In this document: piece after piece, positions 42,575 through 48,062 of the stretch | Position numbering within the stretch: position 1 is the stretch's first letter | Layout of the letters: each line of letters begins with the position of its first letter | From: Methanolobus profundi | GTDB lineage: Archaea > Halobacteriota > Methanosarcinia > Methanosarcinales > Methanosarcinaceae | Length of the DNA: 64,000 bases | NCBI RefSeq assembly: GCF_900114835.1 | Contig: NZ_FOUJ01000003.1 | Location: 248,001 to 312,000, forward strand | Direction of reading: 5' to 3' | Translations under genes and position numbers: made by a program | Notes under the pieces: generated by a model | Database searches by the model: none | Told to the model about the DNA's origin: nothing | What the model saw: only the letters and a program-made list of their open reading frames with translations

Positions 42575-42646
42575 GCCTCTGTGGCTTAGCGGTATAGCGG
42601 CTGATTCGTAATCAGCAGGCCGAGGGTTCGAATCTCTCCAGGGGCT
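42575..42646 (+). tRNA. tRNA-Thr (CGT)
   Basis: A 72-base cloverleaf. The acceptor stem is GCCTCTG/CAGGGGC with one G-T pair. The anticodon stem GCTGA/TCAGC encloses TTCGTAA (anticodon CGT, reads ACG). The T-arm GAGGG-TTCGAAT-CTCTC is canonical, and the discriminator base is T. CCA is not encoded. The AT-rich accessory island starts about 340 bases downstream, so the 3' end is a candidate integration site. No second copy of the tRNA 3' end was found in the window. Confidence 0.95.
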
Positions 42647-42652
42647 TGAAAT

Positions 42653-43630: not shown

Positions 43631-43879
43631 TTAGCAGGAACTTCCATCTTTCAGATATTCAAGTATAGAAGGCAGCTTAACACTCAGCACTTCCAAATCA
43701 GAGCCAAAGAGAGTGAAATTCTCCCATTTGTTCATTTTCTTGTTGAACTTGGAGAACTGGAGCCATTTCACAGTTGAACCATCATCTTTCTTCTTTTCTG
43801 AGATTGTAACTGCTGTGTTTGCCAGGTGTATCTTTTCACCTATCTGTCTAATTCCATATTCATTATATTCATCTGACAT
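43631..43879 (-). CDS. small soluble protein, possibly nucleic-acid binding
   Basis: An 82-residue protein: a short N-terminus, then a beta-rich core (AVTISEKKKDDGSTVKWLQF, NKKMNKWENFTLF) and a C-terminal helix (VKLPSILEYLK). The strand-loop-strand plus helix order recalls PC4/PUR-type single-strand DNA binding proteins, but the similarity is only a pattern. The ATG is preceded by GAGGTTTTAAAGA in its own leader, which supports translation. It is the one gene of the island's left part on the minus strand. Confidence 0.5.
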   Translation of the reverse strand: MSDEYNEYGIRQIGEKIHLANTAVTISEKKKDDGSTVKWLQFSKFNKKMNKWENFTLFGSDLEVLSVKLPSILEYLKDGSSC

Positions 43880-44017
43880 TCTTTAAAACCTCAATTAGAA
43901 ATTGAAATATAAATACAAGAACCTTGATAATTTCACTAAAAAGAGGGCGCATTAGTAAAATGAAAACAGTACTGTTTTTGCGCAGAGATAAATCTAGTAC
44001 CAAATTCAACCTGTTTT

Positions 44018-44333
44018 TAGTGAGGAAATGATGTTCCTCACTAGCTCCCCGCAGTGTTCGTCACATCATTTTTAGAGGGGGAGTTTGATATTTGACGGAC
44101 AGAATTACTTTGTAAATCTGCCCTTTTAAAAAGGTTGGTGCGTCAATGCGCCCTTTGGTTGCATTCACGCAGGGTATTTGGTTACTTGCAAAATACACTA
44201 CAGTTTGCAGGACTTGCAGTCCTGCGCAGACTTCCACTCTCGGGGAGCAGAGTTTGCCGGCTCCCCTTCGTTCCAGTCTTGCTTTTGTTACAGGATTTTA
44301 GGTGATGGGCTATTTAGGAATATGCTGCGCATA
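44018..44333. ncRNA. structured non-coding segment 1 of the island
   Basis: A gene-free, comparatively GC-rich stretch with at least six stems. TAGTGAGGAA/TTCCTCACTA is a perfect 10 bp (44018-44043). A three-way junction is closed by TTGACG/CGTCAA (44092-97/44141-46) and holds CAGA-TTAC/GTAA-TCTG and CCTTT/AAAGG. GCAGGACT/AGTCCTGC is 8 bp (44207-44225). GGGGAGC/GCTCCCC is 7 bp (44242-44266). TATGC/GCATA lies at 44321-44333. CGGGGAGC (44241-48) can also pair perfectly with GCTCCCCG at 44044-44051, giving two exclusive folds. The strand is not determined. It could be an RNA or a plasmid-type single-strand origin. Confidence 0.45.
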
Positions 44334-44419
44334 CTGTAGGATTCATCGAACTCTTCCTTACTGAATTTAATTATTTGATAAACCTCTCTTAGAAAGGATA
44401 ATAAAATCAATAAATTATT

Positions 44420-45097
44420 ATGAGAGTATGTCTTTTTGATACTATGTTTTCTGATGAGATTCAAAAATTAAAGGATGTTTTATTGAATCATAACGACCAC
44501 TATGAACAATTTCAAAAAAGCCTTCGTGAATCTCAACCAATTGCATTTTTCATTACTGCATCCTTGGTGATAGCTACTTTTTTAGGAAAAGAATCAACTG
44601 GACAACAATATACACTGATTGCAAGCATTGCATTTTTTTTCGCATACTTGGGGTTGCATGCATACAACATTACAAAAGATTATCCATTCTTCTATTGGTC
44701 AGTTTCTTTGGTAGTAGTAGGTATTATCTTACTGTATGCTTCATTTACAAATGTCTATTCAATTATTATTTCAAGTGACGATTATTTTAAGAAAACGCTT
44801 GCAGCTAGTATTTTTACTTCAGCACTGTATGTAATGACATGGTCTAATCTCAAAAACTGTGAGGATAAAAAATCAAAAAAATATAAAGCTAGCGAACACT
44901 TTTTATGGACATCAGTTTTGCTAATTCTAATTGCATTTCCATTATCATATATATGTAAGATGAATGATTATTTCTTATTATTTCATACTTTTCTGATTTT
45001 AATTTCCCTTTTGCTAGGATTTGCAGGTTTCTATATCGCGATTTTTCTTGATAAAAATCTAATAATGGCTAAAAACCATGATCGAAGCCGACTTTAA
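44420..45097 (+). CDS. multi-pass membrane protein, unknown
   Basis: A 225-residue protein with a short soluble N-terminus (EIQKLKDVLLNHNDHYEQFQ, possibly coiled) and about six helices in pairs from residue 40 to the end. The AT-rich codon use is unlike its core neighbours. It follows the structured segment directly, so that segment may be its leader. Not recognised; no catalytic motif is seen. Confidence 0.55.
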   Translation: MRVCLFDTMFSDEIQKLKDVLLNHNDHYEQFQKSLRESQPIAFFITASLVIATFLGKESTGQQYTLIASIAFFFAYLGLHAYNITKDYPFFYWSVSLVVVGIILLYASFTNVYSIIISSDDYFKKTLAASIFTSALYVMTWSNLKNCEDKKSKKYKASEHFLWTSVLLILIAFPLSYICKMNDYFLLFHTFLILISLLLGFAGFYIAIFLDKNLIMAKNHDRSRL

Positions 45098-45144
45098 GAA
45101 TTATTATTCCGTTTTTTGAGTAAGATTTATTACTAAGATTTTGT

Positions 45145-45204
45145 AGCGTTATTTACACCTCATGGGAACGCTATACAAGGCCAGAGGGGCAACCCCCTCT
45201 GGCC
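45145..45204. ncRNA. structured non-coding segment 2 of the island
   Basis: AGCGTT (45145-50) pairs with AACGCT (45167-72), followed at once by a perfect 11-bp stem GGCCAGAGGGG/CCCCTCTGGCC (45179-89/45194-204) with loop CAAC. GC-rich sequence continues to about 45240. It lies between two convergent genes, so a bidirectional terminator is possible. The long perfect stem without a flanking T-tract is unusual for archaea. Confidence 0.45.
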
Positions 45205-45311
45205 TCGCTACCACTCAGGTGCCGCCTCACAGACTCGTTAGCTAAGATAAGGGATTGCTTCTATAGGTGAGAATAATCCATCTTCGTTAACTATAAAAGA
45301 ATAACAAACAA

Positions 45312-45890
45312 TTAATTATCAACAAGAGCTTCAAGCTCTTTCTTATAATAATCTATATCTTTAATTAATAGGCTTCTTAAATTCTTGACCTCATTTAAGG
45401 ATACAAGAAACGAGTCTTCATCACATAACTGATCTAAAAAACTAGATATTTCCTTACTGCTTTCATTTCTTGCAAGATATAAATATGTTTCAAGTTCATA
45501 GATATTATGCTTTTTGTCGTTAGTAGAAAATGAATCATCTATGAGAATATGTTCTCCACTTACATCATTTTCACTAAATGATGTAACACGAAGCAAAGGA
45601 TAGTAAAGTTTTTGCAGTCTTTTTTCGATAAATGACCTTTTTTCTGATTTTGTAGTTTGGTTAAGGATGCCGTATGTAAAGAATACATAAATTGCAGTTA
45701 CTACAACAAGAATCAAAGTAAAAGAAGAATTTAACAAACCTAATGTATACTGATTAATTGTGACTGTTTTTGCAATATATATTGCTAAAATATAAGCGAG
45801 AACTAAAAAACCTAATAATAATAAGAATCCCACCATACCTAGGGAATAAATGTAAAAAGAATTTTTTAATAATCTGCGAATATCAATCAT
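45312..45890 (-). CDS. membrane protein with cytoplasmic helical domain, unknown
   Basis: A 192-residue protein with two helices (about residues 14-40 and 50-73), then a soluble, charged helical domain of about 115 residues ending KDIDYYKKELEALVDN. This two-helix-plus-effector layout resembles some membrane proteins of defence or stress systems, but no known domain is recognised. It is AT-rich like the rest of the island. Confidence 0.5.
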   Translation of the reverse strand: MIDIRRLLKNSFYIYSLGMVGFLLLLGFLVLAYILAIYIAKTVTINQYTLGLLNSSFTLILVVVTAIYVFFTYGILNQTTKSEKRSFIEKRLQKLYYPLLRVTSFSENDVSGEHILIDDSFSTNDKKHNIYELETYLYLARNESSKEISSFLDQLCDEDSFLVSLNEVKNLRSLLIKDIDYYKKELEALVDN

Positions 45891-46022
45891 ATATCATGAT
45901 TTTTTCAAATTGTATAATTAGTTTTCTCTGTCAATTAATGTATTTGACAACATCTACCTTCATTTCATTTGAAAATAAATAGTAAAGATATTTTTGAAAA
46001 ATTGCCTGTTAAATCATATTGA

Positions 46023-46100
46023 GTGTCACCCGTGGCACACACGCCTTAATCGTGTACCTAAGGGAACAGGTGAAAAAAGCCATGGGAGCCGCGAAGCGGC
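46023..46100. ncRNA. structured non-coding segment 3 of the island
   Basis: Three consecutive stems in a GC-rich patch: GTGTCA/TGGCAC (46023-28/46033-38, loop CCCG, one wobble), ACACG/CGTGT (46039-43/46051-55), and GCCGC-GAA-GCGGC (46088-46100). It sits in an otherwise AT-rich spacer about 120 bases before the large membrane gene, where it could form a leader. Confidence 0.35.
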
Positions 46101-46219
46101 GTAAACGCTGGGTAGGTTTAATTTTTTAATAGAAATACTGTTTTGTAAAAAAGATAGCTAGGGATTATTGGGAGAAAAAAAACACTGTTTTTACAGTACC
46201 ACAAATAAGCAATACTCCA

Positions 46220-47605
46220 GTGGAAATAATAGGTGATTTTAAGTATTATATAAATATATTACACTGTAATATGTACCGCAATTTTGTGAAGTATCTTGTC
46301 AAAAATCCCTTAATCGCGAACATATTTTTTTTAGCGAATCTACTGTTAATAGTTTGTTTAATATGGTTTATGTTTACTGAAAATCGATATTTATCTATAA
46401 TTTACATTTTAGTTGGTATGACTTTTATCTTGCTTCTTTGGAAATATCGAGACAAAAAATATTATCGTATGTTTCTCAGTGATAGAATCTCATTTTATAT
46501 CCTATTTATTGGCATCATCTTTCTATTTAGTATGTTTATTTTTGCCACTTTTGGGCATAATACTACTAATGAAGATAGTGCAAGATATGTGATAAGTGCT
46601 TTACTTCAAGGAGAAGCAGCCACTTTAGCCATTGTTTTATCATTGACACTGATTGCAATACAACAAATATCTTCTTCCTACTCTATTCGATTAATGGAAG
46701 TTTTTAAGAAATCTCCTGACTTTTGGATACTCTCTGTATTTTACATCGTTAGTATTTTTTATCAAACTTGGGTTCTTAAACAAATACAACCTTCTAGTGA
46801 ACTAAGTTTAGTTTCAATTATTTTTCCTAATATGGAATCACGGATTGTATTTTCAATTTCTTTAGGGATAGTTTCTTTCAGCTTATTGTTGCCTTATACA
46901 TGGAATACTATTGAATTGTTGAAACCATCAACTCCAATTAAAATACTGCTTGACAAAATAAGTTCAAATGATTTTCCTTCATCTACTGGAATTAATCCTT
47001 TCACAAGAAATTTAAAATCACTTGCACCATTTTTACCTATTTATGATATAATAATTGCTTCAATTAAAAATAATGACTATGCTACAGCTTCATTTGGAAT
47101 AAGCCAGCTTCAACTAAAAGTTGAAGAAATGTATTTTGATTTATTTGAAAAAAATCATATATTATATTCAGATAACTTCCATTTTCTACTTTCATACTAT
47201 GAACAAATAGAGAAGATTGGAATAATTGCAATAAATAATAATGAAAACGATGTCATTTTTGATTCAATTGAATCACTAACAACCACATATATTAGTTTTG
47301 TAGAAAAAGGATTTGCTATCTCTCATTTTAATCCAATGAAACAGATTATGAAAATTGGAGTTGCATGCTCAAACAAAAATTTAGAATATGAGGTAATCCA
47401 TTCAGTAGAATCTTTAGAAAAAATATTATCAACTTTAGCTGGTTCAAAAAGCAACAATTCGATGAAAGAAATTACTATTACTGTTGCTGCAATACAAATA
47501 ATTTATGAATCTTGCTTAGCCAATGGACAGTTTGCTCCATGTAGAAAAGTAGGTGACATTCTTAATAGCCACCTAAACTACAACTATGATTACATGTATA
47601 TTTGA
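46220..47605 (+). CDS. large membrane protein, DUF2254-like
   Basis: A 461-residue protein with six or seven helices in the N-terminal 230 residues and a C-terminal cytosolic, all-helical domain of about 220 residues resembling tetratricopeptide-type repeats. The segment ALLQGEAATLAIVLSLTLIAIQQISSSYS and the following helix pair recall DUF2254 membrane proteins, but this is a weak match. The GTG start is uncertain; an ATG at 46271 (MYRNFVKYLVKNP) is as good. Strongly AT-rich. Function unknown. Confidence 0.55.
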   Translation: MEIIGDFKYYINILHCNMYRNFVKYLVKNPLIANIFFLANLLLIVCLIWFMFTENRYLSIIYILVGMTFILLLWKYRDKKYYRMFLSDRISFYILFIGIIFLFSMFIFATFGHNTTNEDSARYVISALLQGEAATLAIVLSLTLIAIQQISSSYSIRLMEVFKKSPDFWILSVFYIVSIFYQTWVLKQIQPSSELSLVSIIFPNMESRIVFSISLGIVSFSLLLPYTWNTIELLKPSTPIKILLDKISSNDFPSSTGINPFTRNLKSLAPFLPIYDIIIASIKNNDYATASFGISQLQLKVEEMYFDLFEKNHILYSDNFHFLLSYYEQIEKIGIIAINNNENDVIFDSIESLTTTYISFVEKGFAISHFNPMKQIMKIGVACSNKNLEYEVIHSVESLEKILSTLAGSKSNNSMKEITITVAAIQIIYESCLANGQFAPCRKVGDILNSHLNYNYDYMYI

Positions 47606-47642: not shown

Positions 47643-48062
47643 TTAACTAATAACTCTGCTATACCTCATTGTGTTGTGATTAGATCTAACTACAATACCG
47701 CGAGAAATACCAAGTTCTTTGAACTCTTTTGATAATTGCTTTGCCTGCCTGTATGTATCGACAACAACAGGTTCAAGAGTAGATTTATGACGAGGCTTAA
47801 CAGGTTTTAGATTCTTTTTACGCTCTTTGTATGGTCGGATTACTCCAGAATCTACAAAGACCTGACCGAATATCTTTTTAAAGCCTATGTTGAAGGCTGA
47901 ATAGAAATAAATTAGAGGCTCTTTTGTATTTTCCCATAAGCGTTTAGTTTTGAAGAACACCTTTGTGCAGTGTTCTCTGGCTGTGTCGAGGATGCCTTCA
48001 GATTTCCAGTAATTGATATAACGCCAGAGGGAACGTTCAGGTGTCTCTGTTTGTTCCTGCAA
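47643..48062 (-). CDS. small basic protein, unknown
   Basis: A 139-residue strongly basic protein (SLWRYINYWKSEGILDTARE; RPYKERKKNLKPVKPRHKS; RGIVVRSNHNTMRYSRVIS). The charge suggests nucleic-acid binding, and it could be a fragment of a replication or mobilisation protein, but no motif proves it. It marks the right limit of the accessory island. Convergent with the large membrane gene. Confidence 0.45.
   Translation of the reverse strand: MQEQTETPERSLWRYINYWKSEGILDTAREHCTKVFFKTKRLWENTKEPLIYFYSAFNIGFKKIFGQVFVDSGVIRPYKERKKNLKPVKPRHKSTLEPVVVDTYRQAKQLSKEFKELGISRGIVVRSNHNTMRYSRVIS

Follow-up and report, generated by a model that had tools for sequence, protein, structure and literature searches.

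Why should a short non-coding segment of an archaeal chromosome hold so many stems, and what might they do for the DNA that carries them? The question is raised by positions 44018-44333 of a 64,000-nt stretch of the Methanolobus profundi genome (contig NZ_FOUJ01000003.1, positions 248,001 to 312,000; hereafter, the window). An earlier note, made from the sequence alone, had described a multi-stem segment with two mutually exclusive folds, of the kind expected of a switch or a replication origin. The stems were confirmed where that note had placed them and are more numerous than chance would provide: the segment holds seven perfect local stems of 6 bp or longer, whereas shuffled sequences average 1.8 and none of 300 reached that number, and the z-scores of its minimum free energy of RNA folding are -3.3 (plus strand) and -6.3 (minus strand). 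The segment is present as a single copy within its own genome. Strict and permissive Rfam searches alike yielded no credible family match for it, and plasmid and phage collections, searched by DNA, gave nothing beyond a chance match of 28 nt at the query's far end.

Conserved stems and alternative pairings

Matches within the genus Methanolobus, to which the window genome belongs, include Methanolobus vulcani PL 12/M (G025) and Methanolobus MAGs. In DNA searches, positions 43900-44343 were 88-92% identical in G025, G001, and G007, with partial matches in G002 and G012. The conserved block to which the segment belongs, referred to here as the intergenic region (IG), is longer than first delimited (Table 1). 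Seven homologues of its core, aligned with MAFFT on the minus strand and without fitting to the model described next, form two hairpins (A and B) with 95% of cells paired, and show 8 double-sided cells relative to 3.1 after shuffling (0 of 500). The two hairpins lie side by side in this consensus, and the three-way junction proposed earlier was not confirmed. A covariance model of the core, R1, recovered 14 instances at E<1e-5, some from loci outside model building; double-sided changes occur in 14 of its 24 pairs, with 38 cells relative to 11.7 shuffled (0 of 500), although fitting this second alignment to the model biases it in the model's favor, and sequence kinship inflates double-sided counts. 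Outside the core, the stem of hairpin C reads GTGTGGC/GCCACAC in G002 and GTGGGGC/GCCCCAC in G008, with the loop constant. Judging from the sequences compared, the IG stems are kept by compensatory change.

The 10-bp hairpin at 44018..44043 is common to the satellite-like elements described below, was seen in none of the proviruses, and is weakened in G002 and G012. G.U wobble pairs number 23 on the minus strand and 11 on the plus strand, an excess that is weak evidence for a structure on the sense strand of the 82-aa/coat operon, which is also the strand on which the model was built. In G007, an insertion of about 190 nt (L025, 8300-8490) separates the 82-aa gene from the structured region, and in G002, a 662-aa NERD-UvrD gene is placed inside the structured region of the satellite-type element. 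The gene-split region in G002 had brought to mind an integron attC site or a group II intron; both were dropped, as homologous regions head virus operons.

The two competing pairings fared differently. Both can be drawn in the window, where CGGGGAGC may join either GCTCCCCG at long range or GCTCCCC nearby, yet only the local one is maintained across relatives. Specifically, the local hairpin changes in a coordinated manner in G025, from GGGGAGC/GCTCCCC to AGGGAGC/GCTCCCT, while the long-range 3' arm in that genome becomes CAGGGAGC and its 5' arm stays unaltered; conversely, G001 has GCGCCCCG as its 5' arm and G007 has GCCTCCG, and in neither does CGGGGAGC change to match. Compensatory change, sought in both stems, was thus found in the local one only. 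Since the long-range arms change without compensation, the mutually exclusive folds are not a conserved property, the long-range pairing was rejected as a conserved feature, and a two-state switch is unsupported. The arm at 44044-44051 may instead pair locally with 44077-44083 (GGGGGAG).

These results bear directly on a riboswitch or other switch RNA governing the membrane protein gene at 44420. The region does lie upstream of that gene, as had been pointed out, and two folds are drawable. The gene is variable cargo, however, replaced by a different one in every relative; together with the loss of the long-range pairing, the want of an Rfam family match, and the better folding of the minus strand, this makes such a switch extremely improbable.

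Table 1. Features of the element and of its structured regions in the window
Feature	Position	Strand	Remarks
tRNA-Thr(CGT)	42575..42646	plus	integration target; ARAGORN/Rfam
att core CTCTCCAGGGGCTT	42634-42647		14-mer; tRNA-Thr 3' end
82-aa gene	43631..43879	minus	conserved beside the IG in every relative, on the side opposite 44420
Intergenic region (IG)	43890..44343	none	conserved, non-coding; DNA comparison with relatives
Hairpin TAGTGAGGAA/TTCCTCACTA	44018-44027/44034-44043		10 bp; stem arms located in sequence
GCTCCCCG	44044-44051		5' arm of proposed long-range pairing; sequence comparison, not maintained
IG core	44092..44193	minus	common to satellites and proviruses; covariance model R1
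Hairpin A	44097-44123		in IG core
Hairpin B	44139-44171		in IG core; TGCGTCAATGC...GCATTCACGCA type
Hairpin C, GCAGGAC-TTGCA-GTCCTGC	44207-44213/44219-44225		7-bp stem, loop TTGCA
Hairpin D	44228..44279		encloses conserved local pairing 44242-44248/44260-44266; outer stem AGACT/AGTCT
Octamer CGGGGAGC	44241-44248		mate of both proposed pairings
GCTCCCC	44260-44266		3' arm of local hairpin
Cargo, 225-aa membrane protein	44420..45097	plus	unknown function; not at the corresponding place in relatives
Cargo, 192-aa membrane protein	45312..45890	minus
Second structured element, elem2	46011..46125	plus	hairpins CCTTA-ATCGTGTACC-TAAGG and GCCGC-GAA-GCGGC
Cargo, 461-aa membrane protein	46220..47605	plus	DUF2254-like (below cut-off)
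139-aa C-terminal DUF7845 fragment	47643..48062	minus	winged-helix part; 89% protein identity

Relatives at tRNA genes and in inovirus-like proviruses

The IG block occurs at three tRNA sites: tRNA-Thr(CGT) in the window, G002, and G021; tRNA-Thr(GGT) in G025 and G001; and near tRNA-Leu(TAG) in G007 and G012. In M. vulcani (G025), it is part of an 8.5-kb element lying between exact 23-nt repeats of the tRNA-Thr 3' end, and in a second species (G001), of a 6.4-kb element between exact 22-nt repeats of the same kind. The intact order is the 82-aa gene, the IG, cargo, elem2, cargo, DUF7845, an AbrB-like gene, a small protein, and a tyrosine integrase. The integrase of the G025 and G001 elements is missing from the window copy, as is the N-terminal part of DUF7845 (479-485 aa when full-length); the right att is gone, and a search of the window found no second att copy. 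The window copy, which retains the left part of the element, is thus truncated and probably no longer mobile. Of 112 family genomes, 27 contain the highly conserved second structured element, elem2, which in most cases lies close to DUF7845 or its fragments and is a candidate Rep-type origin. DUF7845 could not be assigned as a Rep protein from its structure; the model was too poor (pLDDT 53.5), with only a C-terminal winged helix suggested.

The cargo of the window gave no match to defense genes. In relatives, slots by the IG hold defense-type genes, including a NERD-UvrD helicase and an ABC-3C-type pair (PDC-M68AB) in G002, an HNH nuclease in a provirus, and a NERD protein in G025. Between two of the window's cargo genes (45140-45240) lies a GC-rich, near-perfect palindrome, GGCCAGAGGGG..CCCCTCTGGCC, that could be a terminator or another mobile repeat.

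A functionless remnant of a single ancient provirus, decaying under vertical inheritance, would agree with the truncation of the window copy and with the 81.6% identity that this copy shares with its G002 counterpart at the corresponding tRNA site, which equals the 82% of neighboring core genes. Such a history is nevertheless improbable, given the intact elements with att repeats and integrases at other tRNA genes, the compensatory changes, and the 91.5% IG identity shared with the M. vulcani copy, which lies at a different tRNA site, relative to 81-85% for core genes. This higher identity of the IG could reflect constraint instead of recent transfer.

More distant homologues of the 82-aa protein (46-53%) head the coat/pI operons of inovirus-like proviruses in G002, G025 (at a second locus), G018, and the Methanohalophilus strain G114, and a related structured region accompanies the homologue at the operon head in both Methanolobus and Methanohalophilus proviruses. 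These operons encode a small transmembrane coat-like protein, several membrane or structural proteins, and a P-loop ATPase, and an integrase adjoins three of the four. R1 matches the proviruses L048, L049, and L051 at the equivalent position (E 1e-19 to 1e-23); the region was not found by R1 in the Methanohalophilus provirus L052. The AlphaFold2 model of the 82-aa protein (pLDDT 87.7) has a beta4-alpha fold with a weak match to Pur-alpha (E 0.08) and Whirly, and this, together with gene position, points to a putative ssDNA-binding protein; profile searches gave no match in IMG/VR or among PDB sequences.

The provirus ATPases carry a P-loop GKT and a DEAWYTFDSR-type motif. Those of L048, L049, and L052 match known pI/Zot proteins only weakly; the match to the M13 pI PHROG is likewise weak (E 0.045), and the ATPases align to the Zot protein of G008 (hhalign E 1.2e-4, probability 55%), itself a PF05707 member (E 1.3e-9). 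The G008 provirus, L051, has the 82-aa gene and IG as here with a different structural module and this Pfam-level Zot protein, a mixture of genes that suggests module exchange; its IG core is duplicated. The provirus L049 bears the IG core and lacks both DUF7845 and elem2. In DUF7845's place, it has another putative replication protein of 409 aa (Rep409; L049, 11214-12443) with a PHVHYLLFPGH motif, a possible HUH-type protein for which no family match was found.

In G002, a satellite-type element (L022) and a complete provirus (L048) stand in tandem behind one tRNA-Thr(CGT). The outer att copies of this array are about 29 kb apart, with the 14-nt core at the tRNA (L022, 6187) and at the far end (L048, 16312), and the two integrase genes flank a diverged att copy, AATCCCTCCAGAGGCTC.

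Candidate functions of the region

The comparison showed that complete proviruses have the core as well, and that the region's companions in the tRNA-bounded elements, which are devoid of coat and pI genes, are the 82-aa gene, elem2, DUF7845, and the integrase. The segment is likely, in our view, to be the cis-acting intergenic region belonging to an inovirus-derived or inovirus-parasitic element, serving as a packaging signal and/or complementary-strand origin, with packaging as the presumed part. The origin half of the earlier suggestion of a switch or a replication origin therefore came close, while the switch half was not supported. Because L049 has the core in the absence of DUF7845 and elem2, the core does not serve as the DUF7845 origin, a role for which elem2 is the stronger candidate; the segment is the stronger candidate for a packaging signal and/or complementary-strand origin. 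This division of labor is one that we infer. The excised element would replicate as a circle via DUF7845 and elem2, and the hairpins would act on a single-stranded circle corresponding to the window minus strand, on which the 82-aa/coat operon reads in sense. As a packaging signal and/or complementary-strand origin, they could then allow a co-resident inovirus to export the element. In M13, both replication and packaging are governed by hairpins of the intergenic region, DNA bearing these hairpins is packaged by a helper, and an origin split around cargo still works (PMC10334589).

The same strand would also suit a minus-strand 5' leader RNA for the 82-aa/coat operon, either autoregulatory or a structured UTR, with which the better fold, the wobble pairs, and the region's conserved placement ahead of the 82-aa gene all agree. 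However, an AT-rich stretch with a TATA-like sequence (43890-43915) intervenes between the structured region and the 82-aa start codon, such that the transcript probably starts after the region, and the G007 insertion and the gene within the G002 region are likewise contrary to a leader, making this reading very improbable.

Coat and pI genes are absent from the window element and from the intact relatives L023 and L024. These elements share a cis region with a virus while lacking structural genes, which is the mark of a satellite, and the pI/Zot ATPase and coat genes that mark a complete provirus were found in none of the three. The window's own genome encodes no recognizable pI and thus no helper. 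This last point, and the retention of DUF7845, elem2, and the integrase by all intact pI-less elements, would also suit a capsid-less, tRNA-integrated rolling-circle plasmid that shares inovirus modules and is never packaged, the region being a replication element such as its complementary-strand origin. We regard such a plasmid as unlikely, as the core also occurs in L049, with its other putative replication protein, and in the Zot-bearing L051, one element stands in tandem with a provirus, and the virion-operon 82-aa gene has been retained.

With an inovirus-derived or -parasitic element as the preferred reading, it is tempting to suggest, tentatively and at somewhat less than even odds, that Methanolobus harbors a helper-dependent satellite family of archaeal filamentous viruses: tRNA-integrated elements, equipped only with a DNA module and a packaging region, that would be carried in virus particles and spread antiviral defense genes lodged between packaging region and replication origin.

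Known systems and significance

Like the intergenic region of M13/f1/fd, the region described here is non-coding, has several stable hairpins, and lies beside an ssDNA-binding/coat gene block. The phage region holds control signals for replication and assembly and tolerates a split by cargo (PMC10334589), a likeness drawn by analogy with no claim of sequence similarity; by contrast, the host here is archaeal and the candidate Rep origin, elem2, is 1.7 kb away, behind cargo. Roux et al. (2019) described inoviruses in Methanosarcinaceae and detected an excised circle by PCR in Methanolobus profundi MobM (PMC6813254). Those inovirus-like proviruses share the host genus and the integrated state with the present element and have a pI-like ATPase, a small transmembrane coat-like protein, and an integrase, whereas the window element and its intact relatives are without pI and coat genes. 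A word search of the main text of that report (PMC6813254) found no mention of satellites, intergenic regions, or packaging signals. P4-like and PICI satellites resemble the elements in their variable cargo slots with defense-type genes, although their helpers are tailed phages and the relatives here are inovirus-like (PMC9122126).

In its overall design, the coat-less element looks like an archaeal version of the filamentous-phage parasites. RS1 of CTXphi is a filamentous-phage satellite. Like the elements considered here, it is short, combines DNA-metabolism genes with a cis region, lacks coat genes, and stands in tandem with a complete filamentous provirus (here, in G002). Unlike RS1, the present elements are archaeal, with their own tyrosine integrase, tRNA sites, and defense-type cargo, and packaging by a helper is presumed.

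Archaeal inoviruses were first reported in 2019, and none of the open-license PMC texts searched describes satellites of them, making the novelty provisional. A structured region common to proviruses and coat-less tRNA elements is a candidate packaging or replication signal of archaeal filamentous viruses, and model R1 and elem2 provide searchable markers for a family of small mobile elements. M. vulcani PL 12/M carries both an element and a provirus, and thus offers an experimental pair in one strain.
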